Below, one piece after another: positions 25,038 to 32,977 of a stretch of DNA of 64,000 nucleotides; positions within the stretch are counted from its first letter, which is position 1, and each line of letters opens with the position of its first letter. Origin of the DNA: Thermodesulfobacteriota bacterium (GTDB lineage: Bacteria > Desulfobacterota > BSN033 > UBA1163). The notes beneath the pieces were generated by a model. That model made no database searches. It was not told the origin of the DNA and saw nothing but the letters and a program-made list of their open reading frames with translations. The translations under genes and the position numbers were made by a program. The DNA lies in assembly GCA_026415035.1 (NCBI GenBank), contig JAOAHX010000002.1, positions 164,850 to 228,849 of the forward strand, in the 5' to 3' direction.

Positions 25038-26102
25038 TCAACCGGAGCGGCGCTCGCGGTAAAAATTCCAAAGGGCCTTCGAATGGGGATCGAGGTTGGT
25101 GAGGCCATAGGCCCGCGCCCATTCCATGGCCTCGAGGAACTCCTGGACCGTGATGCCCCTGGCGATTTCAGGGTGTTCGTAGGCCTTGTACTCCACCCGA
25201 TATTGGGCCATGATGTTCACATAGGTGTTTTTGGGAAGATTTTCGGCCACCCATTTGACGAACTTCTCTGTTCCCGCAACCCGGTTGGGCATCACCAGAT
25301 GGCGGATCATCACCCCTCGGAGGGCAATCCCTTTTGAGTCCATCTGGTGGACCCCTACTTGTCGGTGCATCTCGAGAACCGCTTTCTTCACCACCTCGGG
25401 ATAATCCGAGGCCCCTGCCGAATACTTCTCCGCCTTGTCCGGGTCCATGTACTTGACATCGGGTTTATAGATGTCCACAATCCCATCGAGGATCTTCAGG
25501 ATCTCTACCCGTTCGTAGCCGCTGGTATTGTAGAAAAGGGGGATCTGGAGGCCCTTTTTCAAGGCGATCCTCGTCGCGTTGAGGATGTTCGGCATGACGT
25601 GGGTTGGGGTGACGAGGTTCACGTTGTGGCATCCCATCTTCTGGAGGTGAAGCATCCGATCGGCCAGCTCCTCGTCCGTGATCTCTTTGCCTCTCCCCTC
25701 ATGGGCGATCGGCCAGTTCTGGCAGAAGATGCACCGGAGGTTGCAATGGGAGAAGAAGATCGTCCCGGACCCGTTCTGTCCCACCACGGACATCTCCTCC
25801 CCGAAGTGGGGGTGATGACTGAAGACCACGGCGTTTAAGGGTGCGCGGCAGAACCCCCTTTCCCCTTTTTTCCGGTTGACGCGGCACATCCTGGGACAGA
25901 GCTCGCACCGTTCGAAGAGGGCATAGGCCTGTTCGACCCGTTTGGCTAATATCCCCTCTTGTTCCAATTTTTCATAGGCAGGGATCCACCGATCCCCCCT
26001 TCTCTGTTTCGGAAGGGAGGGCGATGGCAGAATCGAAAGGCCTCCCAAAAGGACAGAAGCCTTGAGGAATTGTCTGCGCGTGCAGGGCATCAAAAAAATC
26101 AT
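25038..26102 (-). CDS. radical SAM protein (PflA-like) with twin-arginine signal
   Basis: 354 residues. The N-terminus has TRRQFLKASVLLGGLS, a twin-arginine motif followed by a hydrophobic stretch, i.e. a Tat export signal. A Cys-rich segment follows (CELCPRMCRVNRKKGERGFC), then the radical-SAM cluster motif C-N-L-R-C-I-F-C-Q-N-W (CxxxCxxC, about residues 119-129). The rest resembles PflA-like enzymes and AmmeMemoRadiSam relatives (VTPTHVMPNI, PDVKYMDPDKAEKYS). Function unknown. Export of a folded radical-SAM enzyme would be unusual. The start at 26102 has GGGG upstream; an ATG at 26090 would keep the RR motif. Confidence 0.85.
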   Translation of the reverse strand: MIFLMPCTRRQFLKASVLLGGLSILPSPSLPKQRRGDRWIPAYEKLEQEGILAKRVEQAYALFERCELCPRMCRVNRKKGERGFCRAPLNAVVFSHHPHFGEEMSVVGQNGSGTIFFSHCNLRCIFCQNWPIAHEGRGKEITDEELADRMLHLQKMGCHNVNLVTPTHVMPNILNATRIALKKGLQIPLFYNTSGYERVEILKILDGIVDIYKPDVKYMDPDKAEKYSAGASDYPEVVKKAVLEMHRQVGVHQMDSKGIALRGVMIRHLVMPNRVAGTEKFVKWVAENLPKNTYVNIMAQYRVEYKAYEHPEIARGITVQEFLEAMEWARAYGLTNLDPHSKALWNFYRERRSG

Positions 26103-26186
26103 ACCCCAGGGGTCTTAACTTGTAAAGAGGAGAAACCTCAGGTTGACGAATCGACCAGCCCCTTTCTATAATTTTTTAGGAACCTT

Positions 26187-27338
26187 ATGAGGCCTTCACC
26201 TCTTTCTCCGATCACGAGAAGGGACTTTCTCTTCCTCTGGGGAAGGTGCCTTGCCTGTCTTTCCGGGGCGGCCATGGCCTTCCTTCCCAAAGGGTTGTCC
26301 GGCCAGGGGATGAAGAAGGGGCTCATCCGGCCAAAACTCTCCCCTTTCTATAGCGCCTTAGGAGGGGGAGAGGTCCGATGCGAACTCTGCCCCCATCGGT
26401 GTCAGGTGTCGAAAGGGAGAAGGGGCCTCTGCAAGGTTCGGGAGAACCGCGACGGGAAATATTATAGCCTCGTTTATGGGACCCCCGCCGCGCTCCACCT
26501 CGACCCCGTCGAACGGAATCCCTTTTTTCATGTCCATCCGGGGAGCAACGCCCTCTCCGTGGCTACCGCCGGATGCAACTTTCAATGTAAATTCTGTCAG
26601 ACCTGGGAGATGTCCCAGGCCTCGCCCGAAGAGATCTATAGCCACGAGGCCTCACCCGAGACGACCGTGAGGATGGCCAAGACGATGGGGGCCCGCGCGA
26701 TCGCCTATACCTATACCGAGCCCACCATCTTCTTCGAATACATGCTCGATACCGCTACCCTCGGAAGGCGAGAGGGCCTTCTCAATCTCCTCCAATCGAA
26801 CGGGTTTATCAATCCCCAACCTCTTCAGAGGTTATGTCAGGTTCTGGATGCGGCCAATATCGACCTCAAAGGTTTCTCCGAATCGTTCTATAGCCAGCTC
26901 TGTCAAGGGGAGTTGAGCCCTGTTCTTGAAACCTTAAAGAGGCTGAAGAAGGAGGGGATCCACCTCGAGATCACCAACCTGGTCATCCCGATGCAGAATG
27001 ATGAATTGGAGGCCGTGAGGGAGATGTGTCTGTGGATCAAAAGGGAACTGGGCAGCGACACGCCGGTCCATTTTTCACGGTTCTACCCCCTCTACAAACT
27101 TCGAACCCTCCCTCCCACCCCCATTTCTACCCTGGAGAAGGTGAGAGCCCTGGCCCTCTCCACAGGCCTCGAATATGTCTATATCGCAAAGGTTCCTGGC
27201 CATGAGGCCGAGAATACCTTCTGCCCCCGTTGCAAAAAATTGATCATCCAAAGGACAGGCTTCATGGTCGGGGAGGTCCAAATCAAATCTGGAAAGTGCA
27301 GGTTCTGCGGAAGACCCATCCCGGGGATCTGGACATGA
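26187..27338 (+). CDS. AmmeMemoRadiSam-type radical SAM protein with twin-arginine-like signal
   Basis: 383 residues. ITRRDFLFLWGRCLACLSG at the N-terminus is again a twin-arginine motif with a hydrophobic region. VRCELCPHRCQVSKGRRGLC precedes the cluster motif AGCNFQCKFCQTW (CxxxCxxC). AYTYTEPTIFFEYM, ANIDLKGFSESFY and HFSRFYPLYKL match the AmmeMemoRadiSam-system radical SAM enzyme. The C-terminus adds a zinc-ribbon-like pair, CPRCKKL and CRFCGRP. It is divergent from the other Tat-type radical SAM gene, 84 bp away, and overlaps the next small gene at ATGA. Function unknown. Confidence 0.87.
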   Translation: MRPSPLSPITRRDFLFLWGRCLACLSGAAMAFLPKGLSGQGMKKGLIRPKLSPFYSALGGGEVRCELCPHRCQVSKGRRGLCKVRENRDGKYYSLVYGTPAALHLDPVERNPFFHVHPGSNALSVATAGCNFQCKFCQTWEMSQASPEEIYSHEASPETTVRMAKTMGARAIAYTYTEPTIFFEYMLDTATLGRREGLLNLLQSNGFINPQPLQRLCQVLDAANIDLKGFSESFYSQLCQGELSPVLETLKRLKKEGIHLEITNLVIPMQNDELEAVREMCLWIKRELGSDTPVHFSRFYPLYKLRTLPPTPISTLEKVRALALSTGLEYVYIAKVPGHEAENTFCPRCKKLIIQRTGFMVGEVQIKSGKCRFCGRPIPGIWT

Positions 27339-29277: not shown

Positions 29278-31281
29278 CTATTCGGTTCGCGTGGTCTTCA
29301 CAAGGCCTTCCTCCCGACCCTTTTGGGAGGTGGAGACGAGGGTTCCATCGCTCCCTTTGGCCTCCTTGATCCGTTCGTTGTCTTGAAGCAGATGGAGATT
29401 GTGTTTCAGGGCAAAGGTCTGAAGGGCCTCCAGTTGATGCTGGAAGGCCGTGCAGTCGAGGGGACGGATCTCCTCCGGATCGATCTTCAGATCGAAGGCC
29501 CTGCACGTGCGCGTTTTGAGGGAGTATTGAACTTTGATCCAATGGGCATCGATCGAATTGAGGGTCCCTTCGTAGCCGTAGGCGAAGATATATCTTCTGC
29601 CCAATCGAGGATGGAAGAGGGATTCTCCGTCGAAGGCGTGAGGGACGTAGGGGATCCTCAACGCATCGAGGAGGGTGGGCAAGAGATCGACATGGCTGGT
29701 CGGCACCTGAATGGATCTCGGCCTAAAGAGGGCGGGCTGGTGAAACATCATGGGGGTCGCAAGATTTTCGTTATAACTATACCGGTGGTGCATGAAATTG
29801 TCAGGGTGATGCTGGCCGAAGGCCTGGCCATGGTCCCCCGCGATGACGAGGATCGTCCGGCCGAGCAGCCCCTCCTGTTTTAACCTATCGTAAACCCGTT
29901 TCAGCATGTGATCGAGGAGGTTGAGATTGTTATAATATCGGCTGATCATCCGCATATCGGGAGGGACGAGGTGATATTCGGATCCGTAATCGAAATAGGG
30001 GAGGTGGGCGGCGAAGCTGAGGTAGATGGCCAAAAAGGGTTCTTTGGCCCTCTGGATTCTCCGGTTGAAAAAGTCGATGGTCTCCACTTCGTCCCTTCCG
30101 AGATAGCGTCCGAAAGCGTTTTTCTCCTCCCTCTTCCTCAGCGTCAGGTTATCGAAATGGTAGATCTCCTTGAGGCCACTGTTTTTGACGAAAGCGGCCG
30201 GAAAGTACCACTGGAGGGGGGAAGGGGTCACGAGAAAGGCCTCGTAGCCCTCCGGCAGAAAGGCCAAGAGGGAGGGAAGAAAGGCATCCGGTCGGGTCCC
30301 AAACATCTCCTGGCTGAAGAGGTCGTACCGCCCGCTCAGGAGGGAGAAGACCGCTTTGGTGGTGATATTCGATGTCGTAAAATGTCTCTCCAAATACCAA
30401 CTCTCCCTTGCCAAACTTTGAAGGAAGGGCATCGGGATCCTTCCGGGCTCGGTCGGGTCGAAGATATAGCGGCTCCCCACAGACTCCATGATGAAAAGGA
30501 CGATGTTCCAGCGACGGTCAGAAGCCAGGGGGTTGGGCGTAAAAATTGGGCTTGCCTCTCGGGAAGCCATCTCCCCGGAAGGAAGAGGGGGGCCTTCCTC
30601 TTCCTGAAAGACCTTCCTTCGAACCTCTTCTCCAAGGTCGGCGAATAAGGAGAGGGTCGGATTACTTCGCAGCTCGGCAGGCAGGGGGGCGGGATGAAGG
30701 AGAGAGGCCAGGCCGGAAAAGGCAAAGAGGAGGATCCCCCCGCCTAAAGTGGCCTGGAGGAGCCTCCTTCTTAAGGGGAACGGGAGAAGGAAGACCCCCC
30801 AAAAAAGACCGATGGGCAGCAGAAGCGCAACTATCTCTTGCCAGCCCACGAATTTGAAGATCTCCACCTTCGGGACATTATGGAGGAGTTCCTGAAGGAC
30901 GAAATAGCCCATGCCGGTTTGGGCCTCGAAGAGGAGCCGGAGGTGGGCCTGATGGAGAAGGGCGAGGCCGAGGAGAAGGAGATGGGTGATAGCCACGGCC
31001 AGGGTGTTGAGCCAAGGCCTCCCTTTTTTTCTCAGGATCGGGCGGAAGGCCCGGTACACAAGCCAGGACCCTCCAAAGGAGAGGAGGACCAGTCCGAGGT
31101 CATAAGAAAGATCCCTGATCATCACCCAAAAGGGGTGCCTGGAGGGATCGAAATCGAAAGGCCTGACCGAATAGGTGAAGAGAGACCAGGTGAGTTGGAT
31201 CCGATAGATCAGGACGATCCCCAAGAGGGAAAAAGAGAAGGCAAATGGAGTTTTCGGGATAACCGGTTCCAATCGAAGCAT
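29278..31281 (-). CDS. membrane-anchored sulfatase-fold transferase (LtaS/phosphoglycerol or phosphoethanolamine transferase type)
   Basis: About 667 residues. The first 220 residues hold several hydrophobic helices, placing the catalytic domain outside the inner membrane. The sulfatase-fold domain starts at about residue 260 with WNIVLFIMESVGSRYI. A likely catalytic Thr lies in TSNITTKAVFSLLSG, with HLPYFDYG and AGDHGQAFGQHHPDN as metal ligands. Relatives transfer phosphoglycerol or phosphoethanolamine to envelope glycans or lipid A. Which group is transferred here is unknown. The divergent neighbour is a lipid A-type acyltransferase, which supports an envelope role. The start at 31281 has only a weak site. 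Confidence 0.85.
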   Translation of the reverse strand: MLRLEPVIPKTPFAFSFSLLGIVLIYRIQLTWSLFTYSVRPFDFDPSRHPFWVMIRDLSYDLGLVLLSFGGSWLVYRAFRPILRKKGRPWLNTLAVAITHLLLLGLALLHQAHLRLLFEAQTGMGYFVLQELLHNVPKVEIFKFVGWQEIVALLLPIGLFWGVFLLPFPLRRRLLQATLGGGILLFAFSGLASLLHPAPLPAELRSNPTLSLFADLGEEVRRKVFQEEEGPPLPSGEMASREASPIFTPNPLASDRRWNIVLFIMESVGSRYIFDPTEPGRIPMPFLQSLARESWYLERHFTTSNITTKAVFSLLSGRYDLFSQEMFGTRPDAFLPSLLAFLPEGYEAFLVTPSPLQWYFPAAFVKNSGLKEIYHFDNLTLRKREEKNAFGRYLGRDEVETIDFFNRRIQRAKEPFLAIYLSFAAHLPYFDYGSEYHLVPPDMRMISRYYNNLNLLDHMLKRVYDRLKQEGLLGRTILVIAGDHGQAFGQHHPDNFMHHRYSYNENLATPMMFHQPALFRPRSIQVPTSHVDLLPTLLDALRIPYVPHAFDGESLFHPRLGRRYIFAYGYEGTLNSIDAHWIKVQYSLKTRTCRAFDLKIDPEEIRPLDCTAFQHQLEALQTFALKHNLHLLQDNERIKEAKGSDGTLVSTSQKGREEGLVKTTRTE

Positions 31282-31415
31282 ATCTGGATCTCTCTTGGTG
31301 AATCTATTCTGTGACAGAAAAGGATAAGAATCAACCCACGAGATGGGGCCGGTATTGATATTCCGCCCGGAATCCTCTATCGTTATCCAAGCGGCCAAGG
31401 AGATTCTTCCTCACC

Positions 31416-32360
31416 ATGAATAGGGGTTCGTCCCATCTCATCCACTGGGCAGGGGATCTGCTGTTGACGATCCTCGCCCTCTGCCTGAGCGTCCCGATCC
31501 GATGGTTACCTCCTCGGGTGCTTCCTTCGATGTCTCGATGGGTGGGATCGGCCCTTTTCTTCCTCCATCCCCGGTATCGGAAGAGGGTCGTCCATAATCT
31601 TCGGCTCGCCTTTGGAGGGGAGATGGATCCAAAGGGGATCGAAAAACTTGCCCGGGAGGTGTTTTTCCATCTAACCCTGACCCCCCTGGAGTCGCTCTAT
31701 GGCTATCTCCATCCTCCCGAACGATTCCTCCTCAAGATCAAGATCGAAGGAGAGGATCATCTACGGTCGGCCCTGGCTGAGGGCCGTGGGACGATCGCCC
31801 TGGGTCTCCATCTTGGCCCTTTTACGCTGGTGGGGGCAAGACTGGCCCTGGAAGGTTACCGGTTCAATCTGATTTATAATGAAGGAAATTATCCCAAATT
31901 TTGGAAGAGGCTGGGGAAGCACCAGCGAAGGCTCGGGCAGAATCCCATTCCGTTGAAACCGATCTCGGTCTCGCTGAAGAAGGCCCTCAACTGCCTGCGC
32001 CGCAACGAGATCCTCTATCTCATCGCCGATGAGCAGCAGCGGAGGGGTGGCGTTCCCACGCCCTTTTTTGGCAGGACCGCCTTCACGCCACCAGGACCTG
32101 CCCTCCTCTCCCTAAAGACGGGTGCGCCGATTTTGCCCATGTTCATCCGAAGGGAGCAGGGGGTTCCAGAGGCCTTGGTGATCGGTCCCCCCATCACCGT
32201 CGAGAGGAGCGGCAACCTGGAGAGCGATATGGAGCAGTTGACCATCGCTTTTACCAAGGCCGTCGAAAGGGTCGTAAGGGCGTATCCCAGCCAGTGGGCC
32301 TGGCTCAATCGCCGGTGGAAACAGCCGAAGGGCTCCTTGACAGTCCGAGGGGAGACGTAA
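31416..32360 (+). CDS. LpxL/HtrB-family lysophospholipid or lipid A acyltransferase
   Basis: 314 residues with one N-terminal membrane helix (LLLTILALCLSVPIRWL). The family pattern is present: NLRLAFGG, the catalytic-His segment ALGLHLGPFTLVG, EILYLIADEQQRRGG, PTPFFGRTAFTP and GAPILPMFIRR. In LpxL the active His is followed four residues later by Glu or Asp (HxxxxD/E). Here that place is Thr, so activity may be altered. It should act at the inner membrane on lipid A or glycolipid precursors. The gene overlaps no other; gmhA follows 14 bp on. Confidence 0.85.
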   Translation: MNRGSSHLIHWAGDLLLTILALCLSVPIRWLPPRVLPSMSRWVGSALFFLHPRYRKRVVHNLRLAFGGEMDPKGIEKLAREVFFHLTLTPLESLYGYLHPPERFLLKIKIEGEDHLRSALAEGRGTIALGLHLGPFTLVGARLALEGYRFNLIYNEGNYPKFWKRLGKHQRRLGQNPIPLKPISVSLKKALNCLRRNEILYLIADEQQRRGGVPTPFFGRTAFTPPGPALLSLKTGAPILPMFIRREQGVPEALVIGPPITVERSGNLESDMEQLTIAFTKAVERVVRAYPSQWAWLNRRWKQPKGSLTVRGET

Positions 32361-32374
32361 TAAGATTTGGGCCG

Positions 32375-32977
32375 ATGGAAGAGATCATCCAGAAGAGGTT
32401 TAAAGAACATAACGAGGTGAAAAACCAGTTTTTGAAGGGGAACCTCTCGAAGATTCTCGAGGTGGTGAAATTGATCTCCCACTGTTTCGAGATGGGGAAC
32501 AAACTCTTCTTCTTCGGAAACGGCGGGAGCGCCGCCGATGCCCAACATCTCGCAGCGGAGTTCGTCAACCGCTACATCATGGAGCGTCCCCCTCTTCCGG
32601 CCATCGCCCTGACGACGGACACCTCGGTCCTGACCAGCATTTCGAACGATTTCTCCTTCCACGACGTCTTTGCCAAACAGCTCAAGGCCCTGGGTCGGGA
32701 GGGCGATGTCGCCGTCGGCATCAGCACGAGCGGCACCTCCCAGAACGTCCTGAGAGCCTTCGAGGTGGCCAGGGAGATGGGCATCAAGACGATCGCCCTG
32801 ACCGGACACGACGGAGGATTGGTTGCCAAGGTCGCCGACATTTCCCTCGTCGTCCCCTCCTCCAGCACCCCCCGTATTCAGGAGATCCATATCCTCGTCG
32901 GACATCTCCTCTGTGAATTGGTGGAACATTACCTATTTTTGCATAACACCTCTGCTTACGGCGGAGAGGATCTCTGA
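32375..32977 (+). CDS. gmhA: phosphoheptose isomerase (GmhA)
   Basis: 200 residues, SIS-fold isomerase converting sedoheptulose 7-phosphate to D-glycero-D-manno-heptose 7-phosphate for LPS inner core. GNGGSAADAQHLAAEFVNR and ISTSGTSQNVLRAF are the GmhA signatures, and IQEIHILVGHLLCELVE carries the C-terminal catalytic and metal His/Glu. The start at 32375 gives the family's usual length. It clusters with acyltransferase and sugar-phosphate genes, marking a Gram-negative outer membrane. Confidence 0.94.
   Translation: MEEIIQKRFKEHNEVKNQFLKGNLSKILEVVKLISHCFEMGNKLFFFGNGGSAADAQHLAAEFVNRYIMERPPLPAIALTTDTSVLTSISNDFSFHDVFAKQLKALGREGDVAVGISTSGTSQNVLRAFEVAREMGIKTIALTGHDGGLVAKVADISLVVPSSSTPRIQEIHILVGHLLCELVEHYLFLHNTSAYGGEDL

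Follow-up and report, generated by a model that had tools for sequence, protein, structure and literature searches.

Radical S-adenosylmethionine (SAM) enzymes are assumed to work in the cytoplasm, since this is where SAM and electrons of low potential are available, and the pyruvate formate-lyase (PFL) activating enzyme is a cytoplasmic protein. The AmmeMemoRadiSam system radical SAM enzymes are described by the NCBIfam model TIGR04337 (function unknown), whose name and description are silent on export. Use of SAM on secreted proteins is known from the fungal methyltransferase NHMT, in which seven transmembrane segments are combined with a spermidine-synthase-like domain. The acid of its GxG(D/E)G motif is changed to isoleucine and the enzyme methylates secreted lytic polysaccharide monooxygenases; no radical SAM partner is mentioned in the accessible part of that report (PMC10349129). 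The present work concerns two divergent radical SAM genes, here called A and B, in a stretch of 64,000 nucleotides (the window) from a Thermodesulfobacteriota bacterium (contig JAOAHX010000002.1, positions 164,850 to 228,849). Both gene products start with a signal of the twin-arginine translocation (Tat) type. Judged from the sequences, export of A and B across the cytoplasmic membrane is very likely, and they probably belong to a SAM-using system that works outside the cytoplasm. No exported radical SAM family is described in the accessible parts of the open-access literature searched, which included PMC10924467, PMC11918410, PMC7159879 and PMC10349129.

Gene A (25038..26102, minus strand) encodes a predicted exported radical SAM protein of 354 amino acids, and gene B (26187..27338, plus strand) a predicted exported protein of the AmmeMemoRadiSam family of 383 amino acids. 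The divergent start codons are separated by 84 bp (26103..26186). Both proteins matched the Pfam model Radical_SAM (PF04055) with 58.6 bits for A and 69.6 bits for B, at a cut-off of 29.5. The N-terminus of A is MIFLMPCTRRQFLKASVLLGGLSILPS... and that of B is MRPSPLSPITRRDFLFLWGRCLACLSGAAMAFLPKG..., each with a TRRxFL motif followed by a hydrophobic stretch. As read from the sequence, the Tat-type signal of A covers approximately residues 8-36 (TRRQFLKASVLLGGLSILPSPSLP; 25995..26081, minus strand) with the two arginine codons at 26073-26078, and the arginine pair is kept from either plausible start codon. The corresponding signal of B covers approximately residues 9-42 (ITRRDFLFLWGRCLACLSGAAMAFLPKG...; 26211..26312, plus strand), with the arginine codons at 26217-26222. 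By eye, no clear AxA cleavage site was found in A and only weak candidates in B. The CxxxCxxC cluster motif reads CNLRCIFC in A (25722..25745, minus strand), with cysteines invariant in an alignment of 16 rows, and CNFQCKFC in B (C130, C134 and C137; 26574..26597, plus strand). The divergent pair with twin arginines and intact cluster motifs, as described in the first-pass annotation, was confirmed. B scored 360.3 bits with TIGR04337 (cut-off 220). A stayed below every NCBIfam cut-off (27.8 bits with TIGR04337), and neither protein reached the PFL activating enzyme model TIGR02493 (19.0 bits for A and 50.4 bits for B, cut-off 231.75). We take A to be a PflX/COG1313-like protein. The TIGR04337 domain of B begins only at residue 54, and the signal is therefore an addition to the family domain.

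In the genome of the window (G000; 3.06 Mb), two genes scored over the cut-off for tatC. Five of its proteins exceeded the TIGR04337 cut-off; four of them, including B, have an N-terminus with the arginine pair (RR type; one was set by hand) and one is without a signal. The paralogue of A in this genome, 302 amino acids long, is signal-less.

Among 16 aligned A proteins the first arginine and the phenylalanine of RRxF were invariant and the second arginine was present in at least 90%. Homologues of B were collected in a scan that gave 61 loci (L019-L079) with one genome per species. A loose Tat test was passed by 49 of 56 B-type and 11 of 13 A-type genes, compared with 39 of the 445 remaining genes in these loci that encode 200 or more amino acids; together with the conservation in the A family this ruled out a chance motif. 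Signal classes were assigned by a script of our own (hydropathy and RR pattern) with hand overrides at 13 loci; one protein of L002 and that of L128 (RK) were set to Tat, three proteins of L066 to the class with a general secretory or transmembrane N-terminus (Sec/TM), and three split cases were kept apart. After hand correction, the 58 B-type proteins of the 61 loci with a readable N-terminus comprised 50 of Tat type, 5 of Sec/TM type and 3 without signal. The Tat type was found in Deltaproteobacteria, Planctomycetes, Bacteroidetes, Acidobacteria, Gammaproteobacteria and Clostridia, groups which were partly assigned from record titles. Five clostridial loci with both genes (L040, L041, L042, L068 and L076) showed a lipoprotein-like cysteine where the hydrophobic stretch ends, in A in 5/5 and in B in the 4/4 readable cases. 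The RR motif is kept in close and distant homologues; its absence from close homologues, named in the first-pass annotation as a refuting outcome, was not observed. Export of the neighbouring radical SAM pair, which the first-pass annotation had considered unusual, is not a one-off but part of a predicted export in a large clade whose partners also carry export signals.

Besides the scan, 60 genomes from the phylum of G001, which is a WOR-3 genome, and 79 from that of the window contributed to a set that comprised 238 distinct members of this radical SAM family. Loci were obtained for 70 of at least 112 and 116 of at least 128 over-cut-off rows in the two phyla, respectively, where the few rows that passed only together with their neighbours (G123, G075) are not included. 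The script assigned 88 Tat, 7 Tat with lipobox, 34 Sec/TM and 109 without signal; hand correction gave 101 Tat, 30 Sec/TM, 104 without signal and 3 split. In a tree of the radical SAM domains, built without the N-terminus and with the split cases uncounted, the exported and the signal-less state were separated by 3 changes (best of 50 shuffles 66) and the Tat and Sec/TM routes by 8 changes (best shuffle 25). The branch of the AmmeMemoRadiSam radical SAM family to which B belongs is large, carries export signals and appears to be old.

TatC followed the route of export. In the phylum of G001 it was present in 15 of 16 genomes with RR-type proteins and in 3 of 17 with the Sec/TM type only (Fisher p 1.3e-5, like the other p value below uncorrected for phylogeny among related genomes), where a sub-cut-off TatC match in one Sec/TM-only genome (G067) was counted as none. 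The earlier genome set gave 12/13 and 0/3. A Chloroflexi contig (L066, 1043-4500) carries three tandem radical SAM copies with transmembrane or Sec-lipoprotein-like N-termini, together with the membrane protein treated below; no TatC was found in the genome that holds it. These patterns suggest that the location was kept while the transport route was swapped, mostly where Tat is missing, which speaks against a chaperone tag. Had the motif been a tag for inserting the cluster, it would not have been replaced by a Sec signal, and a role as chaperone tag only was therefore rejected. The support for export itself is strong. Of the two alternatives to export raised in the first-pass annotation, chaperone binding thereby lost its support, and the other survives as a possible membrane anchor at the outer face.

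A putative partner of the radical SAM proteins, Memo-AMMECR1, often carries an export signal as well. The window's genome has Memo in three places and AMMECR1 in one, where the two are fused (Memo-AMMECR1, on C16); the fusion has a hydrophobic stretch near its N-terminus, and its start codon is uncertain. Among Memo genes located together with a Tat-type radical SAM gene, those whose start could be read encoded a Sec- or lipoprotein-like signal in 14/14 cases, judged by eye. Genomes were tabulated by the signal of Memo/AMMECR1 and by the export of the radical SAM protein. Scored by eye, and not blind, 50 genomes had both, 4 had the Memo/AMMECR1 signal only, 1 had the exported radical SAM protein only and 27 had neither; the script gave 49, 4, 5 and 28. 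G104 was scored by eye with a second linked copy, G112 with a second copy, G080 after inspection and G110 with an individually read radical SAM protein. Eight genomes stand outside the by-eye table, four as unclear or with a second copy not included (G039, G103, G108, G142) and four in which the radical SAM protein was not obtained, was fragmentary or was unclear as to copy (G029, G096, G121, G138). The signal-less state was likewise shared: six members of the window's phylum (G149, G111, G124, G113, G086, G147) pair a signal-less fusion with signal-less radical SAM proteins. Two genomes with Sec/TM-type radical SAM proteins (G037, G048) had, by eye, one fusion without a signal and one with.

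A strict co-location between Memo and the radical SAM protein had three exceptions (L087, L111, L113), and beside each of these radical SAM genes a small separate anchor gene was found, of Tat or transmembrane type and ending in the usual first segment of the family. Such tiny genes lie at 1092-1367 in L087, 1092-1325 in L335, 960-1238 in L111 and 2373-2585 in L344 (reverse-complement coordinates); L087 and L335 are the same contig stretch of G020. They adjoin radical SAM genes without that N-terminal part, and the anchor seems to have been split off.

Clustering of the neighbouring genes revealed a second putative partner, a 'fused MFS/spermidine synthase' protein in 42 loci, where the radical SAM protein was of exported type in 39, signal-less in 2 and of split-anchor type in 1. 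One member was tested and matched NF037959 (86 bits, cut-off 40) and PF01564. Its reading frame overlaps B in the clostridial and Wenzhouxiangella loci, with A tail-to-tail behind (the B side of L076 is cut by the contig end), and in two genomes without an exported B-type protein (G098, G136) the last part of the frame overlaps the beginning of a gene for an exported A-type protein. Over the 79 genomes, a full-length membrane partner (at least 502 bits; next match 226) and an exported A or B were both present in 31, the partner alone in 0, export alone in 2 and neither in 38, with 8 genomes unscored (p 4e-18); the query had been built from copies adjoining exported radical SAM genes. Counted by family, both were present in 21 and neither in 29, with export only in 2 and partner only in 0, and in families mixed inside the two differed together in 4/4. 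The window's genome has its copy on contig 1 (848 bits).

The GGG(D/E)G acid, which binds decarboxylated SAM in spermidine synthase, was absent in 53 of 54 copies of the membrane partner. This column held a hydrophobic residue in 47 copies, Ser in 4 and Gln, Gly and Glu in 1 each, and an Asp or Glu stood one column further on in 3/54. What we take to be the catalytic Asp of spermidine synthase was kept in 7/54 copies, and the two nucleoside-site acids (Asp) in 53/54 and 54/54. A segment NRxxTxxFF is conserved. Hydropathy of 51 copies indicated seven transmembrane segments, a domain of 319 residues and seven further transmembrane segments, and the number of Lys and Arg per loop alternates in a way that places the domain outside. 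A domain of SAM-binding type predicted to lie outside, the loss of the acid for decarboxylated SAM and the likeness to NHMT together suggest that SAM may be handled at the outer face.

The catalytic motifs of the exported proteins look intact. B has an N-terminal four-cysteine motif (C65, C68, C72 and C82; 26379..26432) and a C-terminal CxxC...CxxC (C346, C349, C371 and C374; 27222..27308), both on the plus strand. Each of the N-terminal cysteines was found in 130 or 131 of 131 exported and in 104/104 signal-less homologues, the CxxxCxxC motif in 131/131 and 104/104, and the C-terminal cysteines in 129-131 of 131 and 103/104. The EP and DLK positions of the exported clade are conserved as in the signal-less clade. 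AlphaFold models had a predicted local distance difference test score (pLDDT) of 80.9 and a predicted template modelling score (pTM) of 0.81 for A, and of 92.9 and 0.86 for B. The best fold match of both models in the Protein Data Bank (PDB) was the PFL-activating enzyme with bound SAM, 3cb8 (target TM-score 0.70 for A and 0.80 for B); no solved structure related to A by sequence was found at E 0.01. By PF04055 and CxxxCxxC, A and B belong to the radical SAM superfamily, and as enzymes they look intact.

Our preferred explanation, held with moderate confidence, is that A and B are exported by Tat and work at the outer face with Memo-AMMECR1 and the protein of 14 transmembrane segments, where radical chemistry takes place. 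The sequences support it with export signals and their conservation, a route swap linked to TatC, intact motifs, export signals on the partners and co-occurrence. From these we infer export itself, SAM outside the membrane, an electron source and an envelope substrate. The cluster would be inserted in the cytoplasm and the folded protein then exported by Tat, a dependence indirectly supported by the co-distribution of TatC. At the outer face, SAM could be delivered by the MFS/spermidine-synthase-like protein acting as a carrier, used by it acting as an NHMT-like methyltransferase, or both. Electrons might come from a membrane redox protein, such as the FMN-binding polyferredoxin found beside one member of the family and in pieces beside another. 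The 5'-deoxyadenosyl radical may, in the most speculative step, modify an envelope substrate, either a lipid or isoprenoid or an exported protein. A 2019 paper by Burroughs on Memo in the Journal of Biological Chemistry (JBC) is said to concern isoprenoid modification. The wider proposition is that SAM-dependent radical chemistry takes place outside the membrane in many bacteria, by means of two exported radical SAM families, exported Memo-AMMECR1 and a SAM-handling or methyltransferase protein of 14 transmembrane segments; it appears to us evenly poised.

Export would also be compatible with a lesser role, in which the proteins take up SAM and cluster before they leave the cytoplasm and act once, or in which A and B are exported Fe-S, electron-transfer or binding proteins that perform no radical chemistry. 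Tat is generally known to export folded, cofactor-loaded proteins, a SAM supply outside is itself conjectural, and the membrane partner could have another role. However, proteins of the Sec/TM type would come out unfolded and without a load, conservation of the radical SAM cysteines and of the EP and DLK positions matches that in the signal-less clade, and the co-occurrence with a membrane protein bearing a SAM-type binding domain is tight. We consider this role unlikely. The N-termini could alternatively be uncleaved anchors with the catalytic domain on the cytoplasmic face, the arginines tuning only insertion or chaperone binding. The lack of a clear AxA site in A, the weak candidates in B and a partner that is a membrane protein anyway would fit such an arrangement. 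It appears very improbable in view of the lipoprotein-like cysteine of the clostridial pairs, which requires processing outside, of the Sec/TM N-termini that replace the arginines mostly where TatC is missing, and of the Sec- or lipoprotein-like signals of the linked Memo-AMMECR1. It is quite possible, at a probability just short of even, that the membrane partner is a separate NHMT-like envelope methyltransferase acting on the same substrate and does not supply SAM; this is compatible with the preferred explanation and differs from it in the SAM step. The change of the acid to a hydrophobic residue, as in the fungal methylator of secreted proteins, and the conserved NRxxTxxFF segment argue for it. 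A methyltransferase would nevertheless need SAM on the same side, which leaves the question of SAM supply in place, and the layout of seven plus seven transmembrane segments would suit transport.

Several observations weigh against radical chemistry by A and B at the outer face with these partners. Memo-AMMECR1 and the membrane partner lie on other contigs, not next to A and B in the window. Exported Memo-AMMECR1 was found without an exported radical SAM protein over the cut-off in four genomes (G041, G062, G069, G134), and one genome (G090) presents the reverse case. In G108 and G142 the radical SAM protein is exported and the AMMECR1 copy examined is signal-less, though a second copy exists; these two, with G037, G090 and G104, are the contrary genomes of the script table. 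The radical SAM proteins of L087, L111 and L113 are signal-less although Memo carries a signal, and three scan loci (L070, L072 and, from Firmicutes, L075) have signal-less B-type proteins. G090 and G115 export a radical SAM protein in spite of having no full-length membrane partner. Charge bias is the sole basis for the topology of that partner, and the p values come from related genomes. Tat-less lineages appear to rely on Sec, which exports unfolded protein, so that cluster insertion would be needed outside in them. We know of no SAM pool outside the membrane.

Exported A adjoins B in 15 of the 61 scan loci, head-to-head in 8 of deltaproteobacterial type and tail-to-tail in 7 from Clostridia and Wenzhouxiangella. 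Further pairs were tail-to-tail in G119, G084 and G100 and head-to-head in G081. The recurrence of the pair in different gene order argues for a functional link. The 30 A-family loci examined in the 79 genomes had 9 RR-type N-termini and 21 without signal.

Further genes were found nearby. An FMN_bind and Fer4_5 membrane protein (1205-2383, reverse-complement coordinates) precedes the split anchor and radical SAM genes of L344, and pieces similar to it by eye lie at 10-963 in L111; it may supply electrons to the outer face. The DUF362 family occurred in 15 loci with an RR-type start in 8/15, the others being incomplete, with a start elsewhere in frame, or without RR. Signal-less DUF362 proteins stand beside Sec/TM-type radical SAM proteins in seven loci (L090, L093, L094, L096, L101, L102, L108), and the copy of L108 has ferredoxin-type Fer4 matches. 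An ApbE-like gene, named by eye, was found beside radical SAM genes that belonged to the signal-less clade in 13/14 loci; in the phylum of G001 these signal-less loci were L240, L242, L245-L249, L251, L253, L256-L258 and L342.

Within the window, genes for a sulfatase/LtaS-like membrane protein, a lipid A acyltransferase-like protein and, named by eye, a SIS phosphoheptose isomerase-like protein lie near B at 29278-32977; counting the window, they recur in six to eight loci. These neighbours may hint at envelope lipids or reflect mere synteny. For the sulfatase-like and lipid A acyltransferase-like genes, proximity to B is mostly confined to close relatives, and they were therefore used only as a hint at envelope function. 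The window neighbours considered as partners (the DUF1847, PAC2, sulfatase-like and lipid A acyltransferase-like proteins) were not adopted.

An extracytoplasmic SAM economy, if true, is part of no scheme known to us. The exported branch, large and conserved as it is, together with its exported partner and a membrane protein that is a candidate for SAM handling, makes testable the role of AmmeMemoRadiSam systems, which include relatives of human MEMO1 and AMMECR1, the role of the 'fused MFS/spermidine synthase' proteins, and SAM use outside the membrane.

B resembles the described TIGR04337 enzymes in score and cysteine motifs, and its genome encodes Memo and AMMECR1. It differs in that signal-less members of the family start at the domain, whereas those of the branch of B have Tat or Sec/TM signals and go with exported Memo-AMMECR1. 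The radical SAM core and CxxxCxxC motif of the PFL-activating enzyme 3cb8 are common to A and B, and B has extra N- and C-terminal cysteine motifs. The membrane protein of L344 is, we assume, similar to FMN-binding polyferredoxins of the NosR/PceC type, a likeness based on an FMN_bind and Fer4_5 membrane protein beside a radical SAM gene in two loci only (L344 and the pieces in L111). NHMT and the bacterial membrane partner both combine a transmembrane domain with a spermidine-synthase-like domain, and in both the acid of GxG(D/E)G is replaced, by hydrophobic residues in 47 of 54 bacterial copies. NHMT is however fungal and has seven transmembrane segments only, compared to seven plus seven in the bacterial partner, and the likeness seen is one of layout and motif.

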